From: Hallerella porci
Lineage (GTDB): Bacteria > Fibrobacterota > Fibrobacteria > Fibrobacterales > Fibrobacteraceae
Reading direction: 5' to 3'
DNA length: 53,417 nt
NCBI RefSeq assembly: GCF_003148885.1
Contig: NZ_QGHD01000016.1
Location: 1-53,417, forward strand
A program made the position numbers and the translations under genes. Of this stretch, positions 11,632-33,816 are shown one piece after another. Numbering within the stretch: the first letter of the stretch is position 1; each line of letters begins with the position of its first letter. The notes beneath the pieces are model-generated. The model was given only the letters and a program-made list of their open reading frames with translations. It was not told where the DNA came from and made no database searches.

Positions 11632-12453
11632 ATGCGTTGGGAAAAGGAACATCCGGACATTATGCGCGGAACCGCAGCCTTTGTCCGCTTTTTCGCCAAT
11701 GTTCCCGATCCTGTTGTCGCAATTGCAAATCGTGCGAGCACTCTCGAATCCAAAATGGCGTGGACTCTTTTGGGAACTTGCATTGAACAAGGAATTCCGC
11801 TTTCGCTTTTACAAAAAGTTCTGAACGCACTCTTTGAAAATTTTCCCGATGAAAAACTTTTTGCATTTCCGATTCCCGCCGAAAATGAAATTCAAAAAGT
11901 CGTTCGCGCGGCGAAGAAAACTTATGATTGGCCCGAAGAAGAATGCGTTCCCGGAATTTTCTTTAGCGTCGGCAATTTTGTGCGAAGGCGTTCACCGCTT
12001 CCCGGCTGGGCTGCTTCTACATCGTTACAAGGAATTCTCCGCGATCTCGGCGAAATTTTTTTCATGGGAAAAGGCGCGTATCGCCCGAAAGCAATTCTTT
12101 CGATTTCGCGTTTATTTTCACCAGCGCCCCGCGGACTCGGCGTTCTCCGAACTCAATTTCAAAATGATATTTCACCCGTTCCATTTGCCTTTGGCATTCG
12201 CCGATGGATCGGTTTAATCGGACCCGGAAAAGAAATCGGTTACGCCGAAATGGACGAAACGCGGAAACGCAAATTAGCATTATCGCTTTGCAAAGCGCTC
12301 GCCCGCAAAGATCCGCGGATGACTGCGCACGCATTTCAATTTTTCTTAGAGCCATCGGAGCACGGATTTATCTGCGCTGATTTGACTGCGAATTGCACAC
12401 AATGTCCGCTCACTTCTTTTTGCCCCAAAAGTTTTGTCGGAGTTCTCAAATGA
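11632..12453 (+). CDS. Unknown protein with EndoIII-type iron-sulfur loop
   Basis: A 273-residue cytoplasmic protein not recognised by name. Its C-terminus carries Cys248, 255, 258 and 264, that is C-x6-C-x2-C-x5-C, exactly the spacing of the [4Fe-4S] loop in endonuclease III and MutY. The stretch before it (KRKLALSLCKALARKDPRMTAHAFQFFLEP) resembles the helices that precede that loop in HhH-GPD glycosylases. A clear helix-hairpin-helix with catalytic Lys/Asp is not evident to me, so it may be a divergent or non-catalytic relative. It starts 9 bp after psd and its stop overlaps the next start (ATGA), so it is translated in the psd operon. Confidence 0.7.
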   Translation: MRWEKEHPDIMRGTAAFVRFFANVPDPVVAIANRASTLESKMAWTLLGTCIEQGIPLSLLQKVLNALFENFPDEKLFAFPIPAENEIQKVVRAAKKTYDWPEEECVPGIFFSVGNFVRRRSPLPGWAASTSLQGILRDLGEIFFMGKGAYRPKAILSISRLFSPAPRGLGVLRTQFQNDISPVPFAFGIRRWIGLIGPGKEIGYAEMDETRKRKLALSLCKALARKDPRMTAHAFQFFLEPSEHGFICADLTANCTQCPLTSFCPKSFVGVLK

Positions 12454-13298
12454 AAATTTGGACGCTTCTTTTCGCTCTTCTTTTCCTTTGCAGTTGCGAA
12501 GGAAAAAAATCTCTTTTGGATTTGAATTTATACCATTTTCTTTATCGCGAAAGCGCTCCAGTTGCAGTAGAACTTTACGATTCCGCAACGGTTTTAAAAC
12601 TCGTTCCCGCTTCGTGGAATTTGAAAAATTATGCGATTTCTACGATGGCAGAACTCGTCTATGCGCCCGTCGCCGGCGACTCTTTGCACATTCGCATTTT
12701 AGAATTTAAAACCGAAATGTCTGCGCTTGCCTTCTATTTAAATAGCGGACTTGTGCAAGAACGTTTGCCCGTTATCGACGGCGATTCCCGCGAAATTGCA
12801 ATGCGAAGCGGTCCGCGTCTTTTCGTTTTTCGCTACGGCCTTTTGCGCAATCACGAACGCGGCGAACTCGAACATTATGTGCAAAATTTTCCCGATTACC
12901 GCGCAGGACTTCCGCCCGAATTTTTGAGCCTTCCGATTGCCGACCGTCTTCCCGGCGAAGCGTCCATTCAAATGAAAAATTTTTTGGGAATCGAATCCAA
13001 CTTTCCGATGCTCGTGCAAGGATTCCGCGGCAATGATGTTTATTGGAACGCTGCCCGCAGTTGGGAATCCGTTTCCGAAGAAGATTGGAAAAATTGGACT
13101 TTTAATTTGCAAAAAAAGACTGCGGATATTTTTTGGAATGCGGATACGCTTTTCTTCAACGCAGGAATCGAAAGCCGCGGCGCTGCGATGCGTTTGTCCG
13201 ATGGTCGTCTCGTTTGCCTTTGGGGCGCTTTGGATTCCAAAAATTTACTAGAACGCTTTCGAAAAATCGCAGAAAGCGTTTACAATTCTCCGGAATAA
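12450..13298 (+). CDS. Lipoprotein of unknown function
   Basis: A 282-residue protein starting at the ATG that overlaps the preceding stop codon. The N-terminus MKIWTLLFALLFLCSC is a lipoprotein signal, with the lipidated Cys at about residue 16 (LCSC|EG). The mature part has mixed alpha/beta content and tryptophan-rich stretches (WNAARSWESVSEEDWKNWTF), and no family motif that I know, though a DUF6599-like exported protein is possible. Position in the psd operon suggests an envelope role only in a general way. Confidence 0.8.
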   Translation: MKIWTLLFALLFLCSCEGKKSLLDLNLYHFLYRESAPVAVELYDSATVLKLVPASWNLKNYAISTMAELVYAPVAGDSLHIRILEFKTEMSALAFYLNSGLVQERLPVIDGDSREIAMRSGPRLFVFRYGLLRNHERGELEHYVQNFPDYRAGLPPEFLSLPIADRLPGEASIQMKNFLGIESNFPMLVQGFRGNDVYWNAARSWESVSEEDWKNWTFNLQKKTADIFWNADTLFFNAGIESRGAAMRLSDGRLVCLWGALDSKNLLERFRKIAESVYNSPE

Positions 13299-27512: not shown

Positions 27513-28106
27513 CTAATCCTCTTCTTCCTCAACGACTTTCGTTTTTCTTCTTCCGACCATACTTTGCTTATAATGGGCAATTTGCGTGTTCATAAAATTG
27601 GCGAAAGATTCGTAAGCAGCAGAACCTTCTAAAAGCATTCTTGCATTCACTAGAGCAATCAAATCTCGGTAAGCGTTATCGCAGTCAGTTCTTGCTTGTT
27701 TCATCGCTCCGGCGATTTTTGCTGCATTTTCGTCGGTTCGAACATTGGCATATTTTTCCACCGTATCGTTTGCAAGCCTTAAGTGTTCTACAAAAACTTC
27801 CAAGTGAAGAGTTTCGATGAGCGGTTTATGCACCGTTTCTAAATCTTGGATAAAACCCATTAAAGCGCCCGATTCCTTATCCAGTGGATCTTCGGTATTG
27901 ATTCTATAATCGATGATATGTTGATTCAAGACAGTTGTCGCATCAACATATTCTTTTAACGGAATGGACATGCAAGCCTGAACCGCTTTTTTATAGCCCG
28001 CATAAACTTTATCTCGTAATGCGTCTGCTTTAGCAATTTCATCGGTTGCGAAACTTTTTTGTGAAATAGATGCGCATTCTTGCTCTTTTTCAATTGCTTT
28101 TTGCAA
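27513..28106 (-). pseudogene. DUF6261-like protein, C-terminal fragment split by transposon
   Basis: About 198 codons of a helical protein (KADALRDKVYAGYKKAVQACM, LIETLHLEVFVEHLRLANDTVEKYA, TDCDNAYRDLIALVNARMLLEG, ending in an acidic tail). The pattern matches the DUF6261 family common in Bacteroidetes, of unknown function. The reading frame enters from the transposon end through a chance GTG at 28118 but has no ribosome site. The first part of the gene lies at 33200-33339, and removing the transposon restores NILQKAIEKEQEC in frame. Confidence 0.88.
28099..28106 (+). repeat. Left 8-bp target site duplication
   Basis: TTTTGCAA directly outside the left terminal repeat, identical to 33200-33207. 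Confidence 0.93.
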
Positions 28107-28131
28107 GGCTATGTCCACCCAAAGTGTTGCT
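28107..28131 (+). repeat. Left terminal inverted repeat
   Basis: 25 bp, begins GGCTATGTCCACCC; perfect inverse of 33175-33199. A shared subterminal motif CGCCTAATTTCGTCAA follows at 28165-28180, with a counterpart at 33137-33152 on the other end. Confidence 0.95.
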
Positions 28132-28195
28132 GGGCTGGTTTAGCAGCCTAAAAATGCCCCAAACCGCCTAATTTCGTCAAATTTGCGTAGTTTAT

Positions 28196-28224
28196 AGACC
28201 CCGATGCTTTTTCGGGGTCTTTTG
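28196..28224 (+). terminator. Terminator-like hairpin inside the left end of the transposon
   Basis: AGACCCCGA pairs with TCGGGGTCT, followed by TTTT on the plus strand. It would stop rightward transcription entering the element from outside, or serve as a weak terminator for the leftward gene at 28239. Confidence 0.65.
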
Positions 28225-28238
28225 CTATTCGAGACCAA

Positions 28239-29042
28239 TTAGCTCTTACGTTCTTTACGCGATGAGAATGCGTATGAAATTAGCACCCCTAGACCCAACA
28301 GGAAGGAGATAGGTGTAATAATCGCTATAAGATACCATACCTTATACAAGACAGAACTTTCTTTCAAGATGTAGTGGAATTCATGCCCACTATAAGGTTC
28401 GTATTCCACTCGTGCTTTGGTAGCCATAGAATCAGCATACTTGTTGGCTTTAGACACCCATTGTTCCCGCGATACATAACCGGATGACCATATTGTATCG
28501 ACCCAGTATATGGTGATGTTTTCCGGCTGCCATATAATACGAGTTTCATCCTCGCATATCATCTTCCCATTGTCGGACGGAGAGCATTCGTATCTCCCAG
28601 TTTTTACAACCTTTTTATGAAGTCTGGCGATAAGTTCATCCCTTTGCATCGAAACTCTATTGTATTCGTCCCGATTAGCCTTCCGCAATTTATTGCAAGA
28701 AACGGTATCAAACCCAGGGCAACTAACATAGCGAAGATGCTGTTTCATTTCAGCAAACAATGAATCCATGTAGTGCATCGTGATAACACGCTTGCTATTG
28801 TTTTTAATTTGTTCAACACTTCGTATTGTGGTGTCATTGGTCGCCACCCAACTCGCGTACAAAGAATCTCGTTTAGCTGACACTATGCTGTCCTGCTGCG
28901 CATCAAACACGCCTTTCTCGTGTTCATACTTCGCACGGTCAGCGTCATATACGGCATCTTGATAATAAGTCACCGCAACCAGACCACCACCGATTAACGC
29001 GGACAGTAGCACTATGATAGCCGTTATGATTTTTCCTCTCAT
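28239..29042 (-). CDS. Passenger: membrane protein with two terminal helices, unknown function
   Basis: A 267-residue protein from ATG 29042 (AAGGA before it). One helix lies at about 3-25 and a second at about 235-258, enclosing a hydrophilic, partly coiled region that holds four cysteines in two pairs (SCPGFDTVSC and ECSPSDNGKMIC), which could form disulfides if it faces the periplasm. No family is recognised. It is the passenger closest to the left end and is transcribed toward it. Confidence 0.75.
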   Translation of the reverse strand: MRGKIITAIIVLLSALIGGGLVAVTYYQDAVYDADRAKYEHEKGVFDAQQDSIVSAKRDSLYASWVATNDTTIRSVEQIKNNSKRVITMHYMDSLFAEMKQHLRYVSCPGFDTVSCNKLRKANRDEYNRVSMQRDELIARLHKKVVKTGRYECSPSDNGKMICEDETRIIWQPENITIYWVDTIWSSGYVSREQWVSKANKYADSMATKARVEYEPYSGHEFHYILKESSVLYKVWYLIAIITPISFLLGLGVLISYAFSSRKERKS

Positions 29043-29236
29043 ATACGTTCCTTGTGGTTCAGTAATCAAGATAGTATAAATATATGACAGAAATCAATTC
29101 AGCCAGCGTTATTCAGTGAAATGGGGGCGAAAAACGACCCAAACCGCGCATCTAAGTGTTCGCCTGTATTCTCGATGTATAAACTGATGGAAAAGACCAT
29201 TTATATTGCTCGACAGAGATTTCGTAAAGGAACCCT

Positions 29237-29920
29237 ATGAACACCCCTAAAGCGATTATTTCTCTCACGTCCTGGCGTGCGCGTATTAAGACTGTTGGTC
29301 TTACGATATTCAATCTACTAACGACCTGTCCAGGCTTTCACATTGTGCTGTGTCTATCTAGTGAAGAGTTCCCTCAGAAGGAAGCGGAACTACCTAATGA
29401 CCTGGTGTCAATGAATAAAGCCGGTTTACTTGAAATACTATGGGTAAAGAGAAATTACAAGTCGTTTAAGAAGGTGTTGCCCACAATGAACAAATATCAT
29501 GAGGTGCCGATAATTAGTGCTGATGATGATTGTCTGTACCGGTACAATTACGCCGAGGAGCTGTACCAGCTGTGGAAAAACAACCCATCATTTTTCGTGA
29601 CCTATTATACAACGCAATGGATAGGAAAGCATATAACCGGGGGATATGCAACATTATATCCGCCCTATGTCTTCAAAGAGTTTACTAAGATATTGGACAA
29701 TGAGGATATACTGGGTAGCATACTTGCATGCCACGAAGATGATTGCTTATATGCTTGTCTCAGGGCAAAAGTAAATGCAACACATATCATGTGTCTAAAC
29801 AAGGATTTTAGTGCAGTTGCGGTTTCTCATGATGAGTGTGCGCCGTTGCACGATTTATACCAAGGCGATACTTGGAAGCGCCATTTAGAAACAATGTGGA
29901 ACATTATCAATCCATTATAA
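29237..29920 (+). CDS. Passenger: glycosyltransferase-like protein (DDD motif)
   Basis: A 227-residue protein. It starts KAIISLTSWRARIKTVGLTIFNLL and contains PIISADDDCLYRYN, with DDD at 96-98 in the position of the DxD metal site of GT-A enzymes; YPPYVFKEF and HEDDCLYACLRAK may line the acceptor side. The same opening and DDD layout occur in the protein at 30519-31316, so the two are related. Likely adds a sugar to a cell-surface glycan, but donor and acceptor are unknown. AAAGGA precedes the ATG. Its end overlaps the convergent DUF1919 gene by 14 bp. Confidence 0.72.
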   Translation: MNTPKAIISLTSWRARIKTVGLTIFNLLTTCPGFHIVLCLSSEEFPQKEAELPNDLVSMNKAGLLEILWVKRNYKSFKKVLPTMNKYHEVPIISADDDCLYRYNYAEELYQLWKNNPSFFVTYYTTQWIGKHITGGYATLYPPYVFKEFTKILDNEDILGSILACHEDDCLYACLRAKVNATHIMCLNKDFSAVAVSHDECAPLHDLYQGDTWKRHLETMWNIINPL

Positions 29921-30518
29921 ACGAATTGATTTCATTGGTGTATTTAGTATAGTATATTGGGCAATGGCAGTCATCTAATCTATTGGTATCATCAAATATA
30001 CATAGACGATTGTTGCTGTTATAATCCAGTAAATCTTGGTGGCGAGTTATACAGACAATTTTATAATTTGTAGGCAATTCAAGTAAAGCCTTTACATTGT
30101 CGTGCGTATAATCGTAGTAAGGCATTTCATCTAGCACAACAAATACCGGACAATCATTCATACGAGACAATCGTTCAGTGTATTTTTCGATGATATAATT
30201 TTCTACATCTGCGTAATTCACATCGACATCATCTATATGTGGCGTTGCATATCGTTCATCTTTGAGATAGTGCGTATAATGAACTTCAACCATATTATCT
30301 ATGATTAGTTTGAAATATCTCTTATCCGCACACTTCGACCAATCGCCGGTGACTAGATGAAACTTGGTAAAGTCTATGTCATCCCATTTTGTAATGAGGT
30401 TCATTATGCTTGGGTGTAATATGGCGCACCACATAAACGGGTTATTATAGAACCATCCCTGGGTTCTATATAAATGGCCACCCAAGCAACAATTACTGAC
30501 TATATTAGGCATGCGCAT
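29907..30518 (-). CDS. Passenger: DUF1919-like protein
   Basis: A 203-residue protein. The N-terminus PNIVSNCCLGGHLYRTQGWFYNNPFMWCAI matches the pattern of DUF1919 (xIISNNCWGGxxYxxxxxxxxSP), a family found in exopolysaccharide and capsule clusters. Later residues give an alternating alpha/beta pattern (CPVFVVLDEMPYYDYTHDN, YKIVCITRH). Its ATG directly follows the TAA of the glycosyltransferase gene (TAAATG), so the two are translated together, which links its role to glycan transfer. Confidence 0.7.
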   Translation of the reverse strand: MRMPNIVSNCCLGGHLYRTQGWFYNNPFMWCAILHPSIMNLITKWDDIDFTKFHLVTGDWSKCADKRYFKLIIDNMVEVHYTHYLKDERYATPHIDDVDVNYADVENYIIEKYTERLSRMNDCPVFVVLDEMPYYDYTHDNVKALLELPTNYKIVCITRHQDLLDYNSNNRLCIFDDTNRLDDCHCPIYYTKYTNEINSFIMD

Positions 30519-31316
30519 TTACCCATCGCCATAATTAAATGTGGCGTGATACTTTGCGTACAATTCTGGGTAACGGGTTAAAACGGCGTACAACCAATTA
30601 TCACGTTTTTCATATCCATTCGCTTCAACGGCATGGGTTGAACTGCATAACCCTTTCCACTTGCTATTGTCAGGGTCAATGTCGTCACCCCATCCAAAGT
30701 GCTCGCAGAATATCGGTATGTCATGATATACTAGCCAAGGTGTAAACCAAGATTCATCGCACACCGGGCATATCGCATCACGCACCGCCGTATGTTCATC
30801 ATCCAGAACTTCCATTGGATATACCGATGCCGGTATCATGCTTTGACCACACCACCGGAACCGAGTGCTAGGCTTGCTGTAATCGGATGCGTTCTTGTAA
30901 ATGATTCTTCGCCCGTTATACAGGTGTTCGCTATACCATTCATAGTCGATGATTGCATTTGGAAACCGCTCATGGTCTTTTAAGACCGTTTCTATTAACC
31001 GGTCGTTATAGCGCACATCATCATCGAACAAGAATACAAGGTCGCTTGGTTCGGTGAATTTGAATATCTCGTGCCGTTTGTGACAATAGGTATCCTTCTT
31101 CGTCCAATGCAACTTTATCTTCGGTATGCGTAGGATAGTTTGCAAGTCCTTTGGTAAGTCGGACTCCTTGTTCGGGAACTGGGGTTCGGCCAACCATAAG
31201 TGGATTTCATCTGGCTTGACTGTCTGCTGTGTCAGAAGAAGGAAGATTGACATACCCACATTCTTTATTCGGCCTGGGTACGAGGTAATGGAAACGATAA
31301 TTTTGGAACTACTCAT
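30519..31316 (-). CDS. Passenger: glycosyltransferase-like protein (DDDV motif)
   Basis: A 265-residue protein from ATG 31316, chosen because the paralogue at 29237 aligns from KIIVSITSYPGRIKNVGMSIFLLL onward; an ATG 13 codons upstream is possible, and neither has a strong ribosome site. The metal-site-like DLVFLFDDDVRYND lies at about residues 92-105, and the C-terminal half has WYSEHLYNGR, CGQSMIPASVYP and CEHFGWGDD, consistent with a GT-A fold. Upstream partner of the DUF1919 gene in one transcript. Confidence 0.72.
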   Translation of the reverse strand: MSSSKIIVSITSYPGRIKNVGMSIFLLLTQQTVKPDEIHLWLAEPQFPNKESDLPKDLQTILRIPKIKLHWTKKDTYCHKRHEIFKFTEPSDLVFLFDDDVRYNDRLIETVLKDHERFPNAIIDYEWYSEHLYNGRRIIYKNASDYSKPSTRFRWCGQSMIPASVYPMEVLDDEHTAVRDAICPVCDESWFTPWLVYHDIPIFCEHFGWGDDIDPDNSKWKGLCSSTHAVEANGYEKRDNWLYAVLTRYPELYAKYHATFNYGDG

Positions 31317-31407
31317 AACAATGAGTTTATAAAGTTCCCGTTGCACCCTTGACATTCTGTATGGCTTTATGTATGCTTAAGAAACGGACTCAATAGAGGG
31401 TAAGGGC

Positions 31408-31974
31408 ATGCAAAACATATACGATTTTTTCGGAAGCATCATGTCAAGTCAAATAACCATCAACATCCTGTCAAATGTTTTGTCAATACCGGTTATCGCA
31501 TTTATTGGCTGGATTATTTATTCAGGCATGAAACGGTATCAGTTCGGACGCTTAATCGTATGGTGGTGGTTTGGGGGTAAAAAACTTCGAACAGCCCCGA
31601 AGACTATTTTTGAATGGAATAAAATCATTACTCATGCTATCAAGCTGGTGGCTGACAATCTAGGTGTAATGAGGACATTCCAGGGCTCGCCGATTGGAAT
31701 GCCGTTGGCAACATGTTCGGTTGAATTTTACCATAAAGTTATGTTTATGGCATGGTTATCCGTACAACCGGACAACGCCCTATACAAGAAAATCACGACC
31801 GAACATCACATGGGTAATGGTCATGTTTACTATGATTCTGATAACGAATCTAAATTCGATGAATGGTCGAAAGATTTACTCGCCAGTTATGAAGGCGATT
31901 TCGAGCAAATAGCAATAATGAGCTACTCGGATTTCATGTGGGTGTTTAGAGACACCCTATTTTCAGTGGCGTAG
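31408..31974 (+). CDS. Passenger: small membrane protein, unknown function
   Basis: A 188-residue protein with one clear transmembrane helix at about residues 22-44 (VLSIPVIAFIGWIIYSGM) and a soluble C-terminal domain of about 140 residues with no motif I recognise. GAGGGTAAGGGC gives a usable ribosome site. It is the passenger next to the transposase gene, facing it, with 4 bp between the two stop codons. Confidence 0.7.
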   Translation: MQNIYDFFGSIMSSQITINILSNVLSIPVIAFIGWIIYSGMKRYQFGRLIVWWWFGGKKLRTAPKTIFEWNKIITHAIKLVADNLGVMRTFQGSPIGMPLATCSVEFYHKVMFMAWLSVQPDNALYKKITTEHHMGNGHVYYDSDNESKFDEWSKDLLASYEGDFEQIAIMSYSDFMWVFRDTLFSVA

Positions 31975-31978
31975 ACAC

Positions 31979-33034
31979 TTATGCCACAAGCGGCAACGGA
32001 ATAGGCGGTCTATCCATGTAAGTCCACTTGGAATCGTCATAGATGGCAACTGCGTTGTGCTTCTCCCAGTTGGACTCTTTGAGGTGGAAATCGCCCTCGG
32101 CGTAGTTACGGAGGTTGTGCCACACCAGATAGTTGTTGAGATACTTGGTAGCGACCCCGTGGAAGCGCACCATGAAGGACTTCAGCTGGCTATGGTAGCC
32201 GTTGATGTGCTGGATGCCAAGGGTGCCGTTCGTGCGGCGGTTGGACTTCAACTGCAAGAGGTTGATTTCCTCCTGTTCCGCGAAGCCCACATAGCTGTTC
32301 AGCTTGTCGGTGCACAGTACCGCATCGGGAGCGATACGGCCACCTAGAACGCTACTCAAAGCAGCAACGGAAGGACGACCAAGGTTAGCAATCTTCGCGA
32401 TGGACTTGCCATCACGATTGACCGCACACGGCACACATACCTGTTCCAGGGAGACACCGCGCTTCTTGGCGCGTTCACCGCGTAGATGCGGCTCACGGGG
32501 CATGGAGAAGCGTTCGCTGTTGCTGTGGTTGCCCTTGAAGGATATGCGGAAGAAGGTCTCGTCTGCTTCCACGATGCCATCCAGCTTGACCTTGGCCTGC
32601 ATTTCCTGCAGGGCATCAAGTATCTTGTGGCGAAGGAAGAAGGCCGCGTTCTTGGAAATCTTGCACTCGTAAGCGGATGCACGGACAGTCATGCCGTGCA
32701 TCATGCAATGCACATACTTCATGTAGGTTTCCAAGTCCAGCTTGGCTCCGTGGAAGATTGTGCGGGTGGCGTAGGTGAAAGTCTTGCCACAGCCCTTGCA
32801 GACGAAACGCTGGTGGCCGGTCTTGGTCTTGCCATTCTTCTTGCAGTCAACAAGACCGCAGTGAGGGCAGAACACGCCATCGTGGAAACGATACTTGTCG
32901 AGGAACTCTTCCATTGTGGTAGAGTCGATAATCTCGGTCATCTTGGTAGGCATGCCGAGCATCTGCATAAAGCGCATCTTGTCCTGCTTGGACAAGGTGT
33001 TGTACATCTGGTACACGACATTGACTTCTGACAT
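31979..33034 (-). CDS. IS1595-family (ISXO2-like) transposase
   Basis: A 351-residue transposase from ATG 33034 behind a strong AAGGAGG. Residues 56-82 form a zinc ribbon (CPHC...CKGC) as in IS1595 proteins. The ISXO2-type catalytic domain follows: Asp158 in IVEADETFF, Asp243 in LCTDKLNSY, and HINGYHSQLKSF (His276/Asn278) before the final helix FHGVATKYLNNYLVWHNLRNY, giving a DD(H)N-type site. No stop or frameshift is seen, so it may be active. It reads inward from the right end of the element. Confidence 0.93.
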   Translation of the reverse strand: MSEVNVVYQMYNTLSKQDKMRFMQMLGMPTKMTEIIDSTTMEEFLDKYRFHDGVFCPHCGLVDCKKNGKTKTGHQRFVCKGCGKTFTYATRTIFHGAKLDLETYMKYVHCMMHGMTVRASAYECKISKNAAFFLRHKILDALQEMQAKVKLDGIVEADETFFRISFKGNHSNSERFSMPREPHLRGERAKKRGVSLEQVCVPCAVNRDGKSIAKIANLGRPSVAALSSVLGGRIAPDAVLCTDKLNSYVGFAEQEEINLLQLKSNRRTNGTLGIQHINGYHSQLKSFMVRFHGVATKYLNNYLVWHNLRNYAEGDFHLKESNWEKHNAVAIYDDSKWTYMDRPPIPLPLVA

Positions 33035-33174
33035 TGGACTTTCCTCCTTATAGCCTATGAAATATAGCAAAAAGGAGTGTCACTTTATGACACAGAAGCC
33101 TCTGTTTGTAAATTTTAGTAAACAAAAGGTGCCTAATTGGCGAAATTAGGCGAAAATCGGCATTTTACGACCGG

Positions 33175-33199
33175 AGCAACACTTTGGGTGGACATAGCC
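33175..33199 (-). repeat. Right terminal inverted repeat
   Basis: 25 bp, perfect inverse of 28107-28131. Confidence 0.95.
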
Positions 33200-33207
33200 T
33201 TTTGCAA
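33200..33207 (+). repeat. Right 8-bp target site duplication
   Basis: TTTTGCAA directly outside the right terminal repeat. Confidence 0.93.
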
Positions 33208-33339
33208 AATATTTAATGCGTCGGCGCAATTTTTGCAAATCAATTCATTTTCTTTGGCACGTTCAGCGGTTTTATCCATAAAAAGATAATGAGCTGCATT
33301 ACTGATGCCTGCTAAGCGAATCGTCGTAATTTGAAGCAT
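33200..33339 (-). pseudogene. DUF6261-like protein, N-terminal fragment
   Basis: Encodes MLQITTIRLAGISNAAHY... to ...ALNILQK and then runs into the transposon. The ATG at 33339 is preferred because GGAGGA sits just before it; an ATG four codons upstream lies in that ribosome site. With the piece at 27513-28106 the original protein would be about 240 residues, the usual DUF6261 size. Confidence 0.85.
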
Positions 33340-33481
33340 CGCTTCCTCCATCCATTTTTGAGTGTTTTCAAGTTCCGTTATGGAAACTTTCCTGCATAAA
33401 TTATCTTAATTCGCTAGAAATAATGCCAAAGCGAAGAGTAAACTTTTCTTTATGTTACAGGTATACTATAAAATGCCCGTT

Positions 33482-33816
33482 TCTAGCTTCTCCGAGTGTC
33501 CGATGAAGCTAGCGACGACCGTCTCTAGGTTCTCCGAGTGTCCGATGAAGCTAGCGACGACCATCTCTAGGCTGTCCGAGTGTCCGATGATGCTAGCGAC
33601 GACCGTTTCTAGCTTCTCCGAGTGTCCGATAAGGCTAGCGACGACCGTTTCTAGCTTCTCCGAGTGTCCGATGAAGCTAGTGACGACCGTTTCTAGCTTC
33701 TCCGAGTGTCCGATGAAGCTAGTGACGACCGTTTCTAGCTTCTCCGAGTGTCCGATAAGGCTAGCGACGACCGTCTCTAAGTTCTCCGAGTGTCCGATAA
33801 GGCTAGCGACGGAAAT
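33482..33816. repeat. 42-bp tandem repeat, eight copies
   Basis: TCCGAGTG recurs at 33491, 33533, 33575, 33617, 33659, 33701, 33743 and 33785, always 42 bp apart. Units differ at about nine positions; copies 5 and 6 are identical, and the last breaks off after about 36 bp. Each consensus unit holds CTAGCTTC and GAAGCTAG around a 14-bp spacer, but the variants do not keep this pairing. As 42 is divisible by three, frames on both strands stay open: plus strand SSFSECPMKLATTV, minus strand SFIGHSEKLETVVA. Neither has a convincing start and ribosome site. Confidence 0.95.

Follow-up and report, generated by a model that had tools for sequence, protein, structure and literature searches.

Ends of a probable IS1595-family transporter insertion sequence in Hallerella porci also bound gene cassettes in phage contigs

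Most work on insertion sequences (ISs) and miniature inverted-repeat transposable elements (MITEs) concerns bacterial chromosomes and plasmids, and to our knowledge large phages are not their usual home. In a 2024 review of MITEs no word begins with 'phage'. Members of the IS1595 family have ends of about 25 bp that start with GG, and 8-bp target duplications in AT-rich DNA (PMC5704250). Two of them, MTnSag1 (tISSag10) and tISCpe8, are lincosamide-resistance transporter ISs, carrying a passenger unrelated to transposition between IS ends, and 25-bp ends, 8-bp duplications and a circular intermediate are reported for MTnSag1 (PMC5704250). Here we describe an IS1595-family element at positions 28107-33199 of a 53,417-nt stretch of Hallerella porci DNA (from contig NZ_QGHD01000016.1, assembly GCF_003148885.1), the whole of which is called the window. 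We consider it probable that this is an autonomous, cargo-carrying transporter IS, related to ISSag10/MTnSag1 yet distinct from it, whose ends also bound gene cassettes in phages. The likeness to MTnSag1 and tISCpe8 lies in the IS1595 transposase, the 25-bp ends (18/25 positions agree by eye), the AT-rich 8-bp duplications and the position of the passenger beside the transposase. The described elements carry one resistance gene at a constant 1.7 kb and are found mainly in Firmicutes, whereas those of the type described here, referred to as Fibrobacter-type, carry five to six varied genes and occur in Fibrobacter and large phages.

The element measures 5,093 bp and its boundaries are exact (Table 1). 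As had been claimed in the original prediction, made from the letters of the window, the two 25-bp ends (GGCTATGTCCACCCAAAGTGTTGCT) are 100% complementary inverted repeats, with an 8-bp target duplication, TTTTGCAA, on either side; a repeat finder stretches the ends to 27 nt, the two additional bases being part of the duplications. Both the ends and the AT-rich duplication are of the type usual in the IS1595 family. Rejoining the flanks with one TTTTGCAA deleted gives a single open frame of 263 codons for a DUF6261 protein, which the element has split. Paralogues with 52-57% identity are encoded elsewhere in the same genome (2.85 Mb, 78 contigs), in which these two ends are the sole matches at up to three mismatches and a reversed control pattern matched nowhere. 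When the intact target gene was sought in relatives, only paralogues and weak relatives were found. The DUF6261 family has about seven more matches in the genome, some of them fragmentary (27513-28118; G000 contigs C4, C7, C20, C21 and C23), and its close members are missing from most relatives. The loss of one member to an insertion may be tolerated. The surroundings look chromosomal, with a tRNA-Gly gene and, by eye, RsgA-like and ribosomal L9-like open reading frames (ORFs). The G+C content is 54% in the transposase gene, 41.5% in the cargo and 46.5-46.8% in the flanks.

There is exactly one transposase within the element. The expectation of a complete zinc-ribbon DDE-type IS1595 transposase was borne out: the 351-aa protein has no internal stops and matches NF033547 at an E value of 6.5e-52 (176.5 bits against a cut-off of 75), NF050000 and PF12762 also score above cut-off, and the IS1/IS1595 zinc ribbon is matched. 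Its best named match is ISSag10, at 49% identity over 95% of the protein. With this identity, a length of 5.1 kb and no nucleotidyltransferase, the element falls outside the ISSag10/MTnSag1 subgroup, and to judge from the same figure, the highest for any named transposase, it appears not to have been described, as had been suspected. Among isolated phages in INPHARED the transposase found ISSag10-type or weaker matches only.

The transposase was also sought in one genome per species for 84,980 species and in viral contigs; most of the contigs compared in this work are metagenome assemblies. An identical protein (100%) is encoded in Fibrobacter sp. RGIG6529 (L051), one of 95% identity in F. succinogenes RUG13674 (L052) and one of 86% in a 160-kb viral (myovirus) contig, L131. 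In all three both 25-bp ends are letter for letter those of the window, and a search for the same ends around other cargo, which the prediction had proposed as a check, has therefore succeeded in two Fibrobacter genomes and one phage. The element of L051 is 6,010 bp long with TTTAATTT duplicated, that of L131 is 4,424 bp long with TTTTAAAT duplicated, and that of L052 is 1,752 bp long with no duplication. The four cargos are mutually unrelated. Homology extends through the transposase module (DNA identity to the window of 98% in L051, 90% in L052 and 78% in L131), breaks off no more than a few bases from the stop codon of the transposase gene and restarts in a far-end module, of about 118 bp in the window and L051 and of 142 bp, at 93% identity, in L052 and L131. 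In the element of L052 a transposase module of the window type is combined with a far end of the L131 type; this mixture, together with the missing duplication, is as expected if two elements had recombined and may be a trace of end swapping. Between the window and L051 the transposase genes differ at 21 positions, all synonymous and none nonsynonymous, which indicates a gene under purifying selection and a recent relationship. The element is probably still functional.

More distant relatives were also found. F. intestinalis ATCC 43854 (G005, locus L053) has a transposase-only relative at 51% identity. A complete genome of the window's genus (G002) holds two identical 1,725-bp copies (L005 and L022), each with its own duplication and a nucleotidyltransferase passenger, of an element that matches lnu(C)-type ISSag10/MTnSag1 by length, ends and the annotation of relatives; this type is common in Firmicutes. 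A Fibrobacteraceae chromosome carries a transposase-less relative of 1,332 bp with a 372-aa HNH-like ORF (motif by eye) and no clear duplication.

The association with phages and the transposase-less cassettes go beyond what the original prediction had observed. A slightly degenerate pattern of the ends, searched against 2.9 million viral contigs, matched 12 stretches in nine contigs, five of which exceed 110 kb, and a scan of the records showed up to seven ends per contig with none for the reversed control. Pairing of the ends and comparison of their flanks resolved eleven distinct insertions, the L131 element and ten without a transposase, with duplications agreeing at 8/8 positions in ten and at 7/8 in one. 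In seven of the ten, a single ORF (62-188 aa) takes up most of the length of the cassette (285, 366, 411, 456, 625, 626 and 807 bp), in most cases with a stretch resembling a ribosome-binding site immediately inside one of the ends, and no two of the seven ORFs match one another; the other three lack an ORF and are MITE-like. The G+C content of the cassettes is 38-49% against 47-55% in the surrounding phage regions. The 456-bp cassette sits in a MITE, and an uninterrupted copy of this MITE elsewhere in that phage contains a single ATTGCTAT target. Both end regions of the 807-bp cassette (L202) are common to L131 at 89-93% identity, which suggests that the cassette arose by deletion from an element of this kind. 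Across the thirteen insertions of the group the target duplications are 85% A+T.

Integron gene cassettes comprise many single ORFs, often lacking a promoter, that all follow the same recombination sequence. The phage cassettes resemble them, by analogy only, in the many single ORFs and the one common sequence; integrons use attC sites and an integrase, whereas here there are inverted transposon ends and target duplications, with no array and no fixed integration site. In structure the seven one-ORF cassettes, with their 8-bp duplications, are mobile insertion cassettes. Like MIC231 of Bacillus cereus (named in PMC6542083), they are transposase-less genes between IS ends that would need a transposase from elsewhere, although MIC231 has IS231 ends, whereas the present cassettes have IS1595 ends and comprise several single genes behind one end type in large phages. 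The Tn3-derived miniature gene-mobilising elements termed TIMEs (PMC4133298, PMC13367494) similarly have short non-autonomous ends around intervening DNA and take their transposase in trans, but their ends are of the Tn3 family and they carry bacterial resistance genes rather than forming phage-borne single-gene cassettes. No description of IS1595 cassettes in large phages was found in the collection of open-access papers searched.

Some ends have no partner. Three of these (L209:5454-5478, L214:7883-7907 and L205:7916-7940) stand directly before the start codon of one gene family, whose members share 98% identity between L209 and L214 and about 30% with L205; an ATG within the end reads in frame (MSTQSV...). 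Such ends are possibly fixed cassettes or an end reused as a 5' leader. The far ends of L052, L131, L202 and L216, over about 120-150 bp, share a leader that contains a TTGCTATATTTG motif and a stretch resembling a ribosome-binding site. This leader precedes differing genes (in L216, at the contig end, none was seen), an arrangement suggestive of a far end that provides swapped genes with expression signals.

The rest of the window element is occupied by five non-transposase ORFs of 188-278 aa, in keeping with the number of passenger genes originally counted. That these are of surface-glycan type is upheld for three (278, 227 and 203 aa) and not for the 188-aa and 276-aa proteins, which have no significant match in Pfam, NCBIfam or PHROGs. 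The 278-aa protein has a predicted GT-A glycosyltransferase fold (mean predicted local distance difference test score, pLDDT, 79.6), with KfiA as the top Foldseek match (E 8e-8), and the 227-aa protein is its homologue at about 30% identity. The 203-aa protein belongs to DUF1919 (E 1.9e-7); its structure model (pLDDT 70.7) has one match, the uncharacterised protein 2g6t, from which no function follows. A peptide-pattern search for viral relatives of the 188-aa, 276-aa and DUF1919 proteins found none, although a viral relative of the DUF1919 protein nonetheless surfaced adjoining a phage glycosyltransferase gene. The glycosyltransferase has no match among the isolated phages of INPHARED. No relic of the ends, which would mark fused cassettes, was detected inside the window cargo at up to nine mismatches.

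The three middle genes of the window cargo are collinear with a cluster in the viral contig IMG/VR 3300021431_002372, at 64-72% protein identity and 75% DNA identity over 1,081 bp, the phage cluster having one additional gene between the first two of the trio. This contig and its relative 3300021254_002501 have, between the two, clamp-loader and terminase matches. No transposon ends flank the three genes there. The prediction had held that the same gene order without the ends would count against a transposon; the trio in the phage is a case of this kind, and it indicates the source of the cargo, while the transposon reading stands, since the duplication and the interrupted gene establish exactly where the element begins and ends. 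Against its phage relative the DUF1919 gene has a ratio of nonsynonymous to synonymous substitution rates (dN/dS) of about 0.12 (in the other two middle genes the synonymous sites are saturated), which argues for purifying selection on the cargo since the split from the phage relatives, on whichever replicon it took place. In L051 the neighbouring cargo proteins of 276 aa and 257 aa are weakly related (25%) to proteins encoded in matching order in both 3300021431_002372 and 3300021254_002501, and an 817-aa protein has a 48% relative in a different viral contig.

The L131 insertion lies among genes for a primase, a single-strand binding protein, a RuvC-like resolvase, a DnaB-like helicase, UvsX and baseplate wedge proteins. 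In a Fibrobacteraceae genome a 164-kb contig (G057:C5) carries primase, DnaB, UvsX and baseplate wedge genes and also encodes a 31% relative of the baseplate protein of the L131 contig; it is chiefly this contig that ties such phages to Fibrobacter. Other transposase-like genes recur in these phage contigs (PHROGs phrog_506 and 12300; L141:3258-4361 and 11997-13100; L205:3906-5192; G057:C5), those of L141 being TnpB-like by eye.

Five is a large number of cargo genes for a simple IS, and a composite transposon or a genomic island made by recombination and merely containing an IS1595 copy could be imagined. Composite transposons have two IS copies around their cargo; here the one transposase is found between the ends and immediately beside one of the two, and there is a single end pair with an exact 8-bp duplication and a target frame that can be restored. 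The single transposase and the exact boundaries lead us to regard this explanation as ruled out, leaving it a vanishingly small probability. That the cargo came from the Fibrobacter chromosome, with phages drawing on the same source, would fit the weaker glycosyltransferase relatives (22-34% identity) present in many Fibrobacterota genomes. It is nevertheless unlikely, since the closest and the sole collinear matches are the viral contigs and the best match in a Fibrobacteraceae genome (52%) is on a contig, G057:C15, that itself has phage-type genes. A stronger contender, although one that we doubt on balance, is an ordinary transporter IS of the ISSag10 line that trapped neighbouring genes, its copies in phages being incidental and without a role in gene exchange. 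Transporter ISs with one resistance gene are known in the family (PMC5704250), and phages occasionally acquire ISs, as with the ISSag10-type transposases of Streptococcus phages. However, ISSag10-type loci are uniform (36/38 measure 1,724-1,735 bp and carry lnu(C)), while each autonomous Fibrobacter-type copy has a different cargo, and the phage contigs hold many cassettes.

We therefore favour a distinct transporter IS with ends shared by phage cassettes. Its transposase would act on the 25-bp ends and move the element to AT-rich 8-bp targets by the IS1595 route, and, to go by the shared ends and duplications, it may also mobilise cassettes that lack a transposase. Elements residing in a phage or a host chromosome would gain phage genes beside their transposase; the simplest way would be a transposition or recombination event that connects one copy's transposase-side end with the far end of a second copy. 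Later deletion of the transposase would leave cassettes behind. The cargo might change surface or virion glycans through phage-derived glycosyltransferases, although this is a guess from predicted folds and the weakest step. Several points weigh against this reading. No transposition has been observed; only a single autonomous copy was found in a phage, and the empty site of the L131 insertion was not found in other phage contigs; even the nearest phage genes differ from the window cargo by 28-36%, and no source is known for the two outer genes of that cargo; and the link between phage and host rests mainly on one genome assembly and on the confinement of close transposases to Fibrobacter. Chimeras can also arise in metagenome assembly, which is less likely here because duplications and shared ends recur in independent samples.

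Fibrobacter, a gut bacterium, is a main degrader of cellulose in the rumen. Host chromosomes and several large phage genomes contain identical ends of one IS family, each time around different genes of foreign base composition, and this suggests that bacteria and phages are linked by a shared set of gene-shuttling ends. Movement of the cassettes in trans, if it occurs, would provide a testable route for the exchange of single genes among big phages and for the passage of phage glycosyltransferase genes into Fibrobacter. A more far-reaching and tentative possibility is a gene-cassette exchange system of large Fibrobacter phages, a transposon counterpart of the integron between co-infecting phages, in which many single-gene cassettes with interchangeable 25-bp ends would be moved in trans by rare autonomous copies located in phages or hosts, and multi-gene autonomous copies would ferry phage genes into bacterial chromosomes. 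The identical transposase protein with different cargo also offers a natural series for studying the capture of passenger genes by IS elements.

Table 1. Coordinates of the element, its parts and the interrupted gene in the window
Feature	Position	Strand	Remark
Interrupted DUF6261 target gene, 3' part	27513..28098	-	
Left target-duplication copy	28099..28106		TTTTGCAA
25-bp terminal inverted repeat, far end	28107..28131	+	cargo side
Far-end module, about 118 bp	28107..28223	+	common to L051 element (85% identity)
Terminator-like hairpin	28197-28219		inside far-end module; by eye
Cargo ORF, 276 aa	28239..29069	-	listed with a TTG start; no family; by eye a probable membrane protein
Cargo ORF, 227 aa	29237..29920	+	glycosyltransferase-like; 72% identity to gene of phage contig L149/L214
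Cargo ORF, 203 aa	29907..30518	-	DUF1919; 72% identity to neighbouring gene of L149/L214
Cargo ORF, 278 aa	30519..31355	-	GT-A-fold glycosyltransferase; 64-65% identity to next gene of L149/L214
Cargo ORF, 188 aa	31408..31974	+	no family; no viral relative found
Transposase, 351 aa	31979..33034	-	IS1595 family; zinc ribbon and DDE_Tnp_IS1595 domain
Transposase module	31980..33199	-	end, promoter-like region and transposase; common to L051, L052, L131
25-bp terminal inverted repeat, transposase-side end	33175..33199	-	
Right target-duplication copy	33200..33207		TTTTGCAA
Interrupted DUF6261 target gene, 5' part	33200..33351	-	

Two minor repeats deserve mention. The possibility that an 18-nt repeat (28150 and 29130) is a subterminal remnant inside the element was dropped, as the repeat is about what chance would give in 5 kb. 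A 42-bp unit is repeated eight times in tandem (92% match) just outside the element, at 33477-33811, within a 174-aa ORF.

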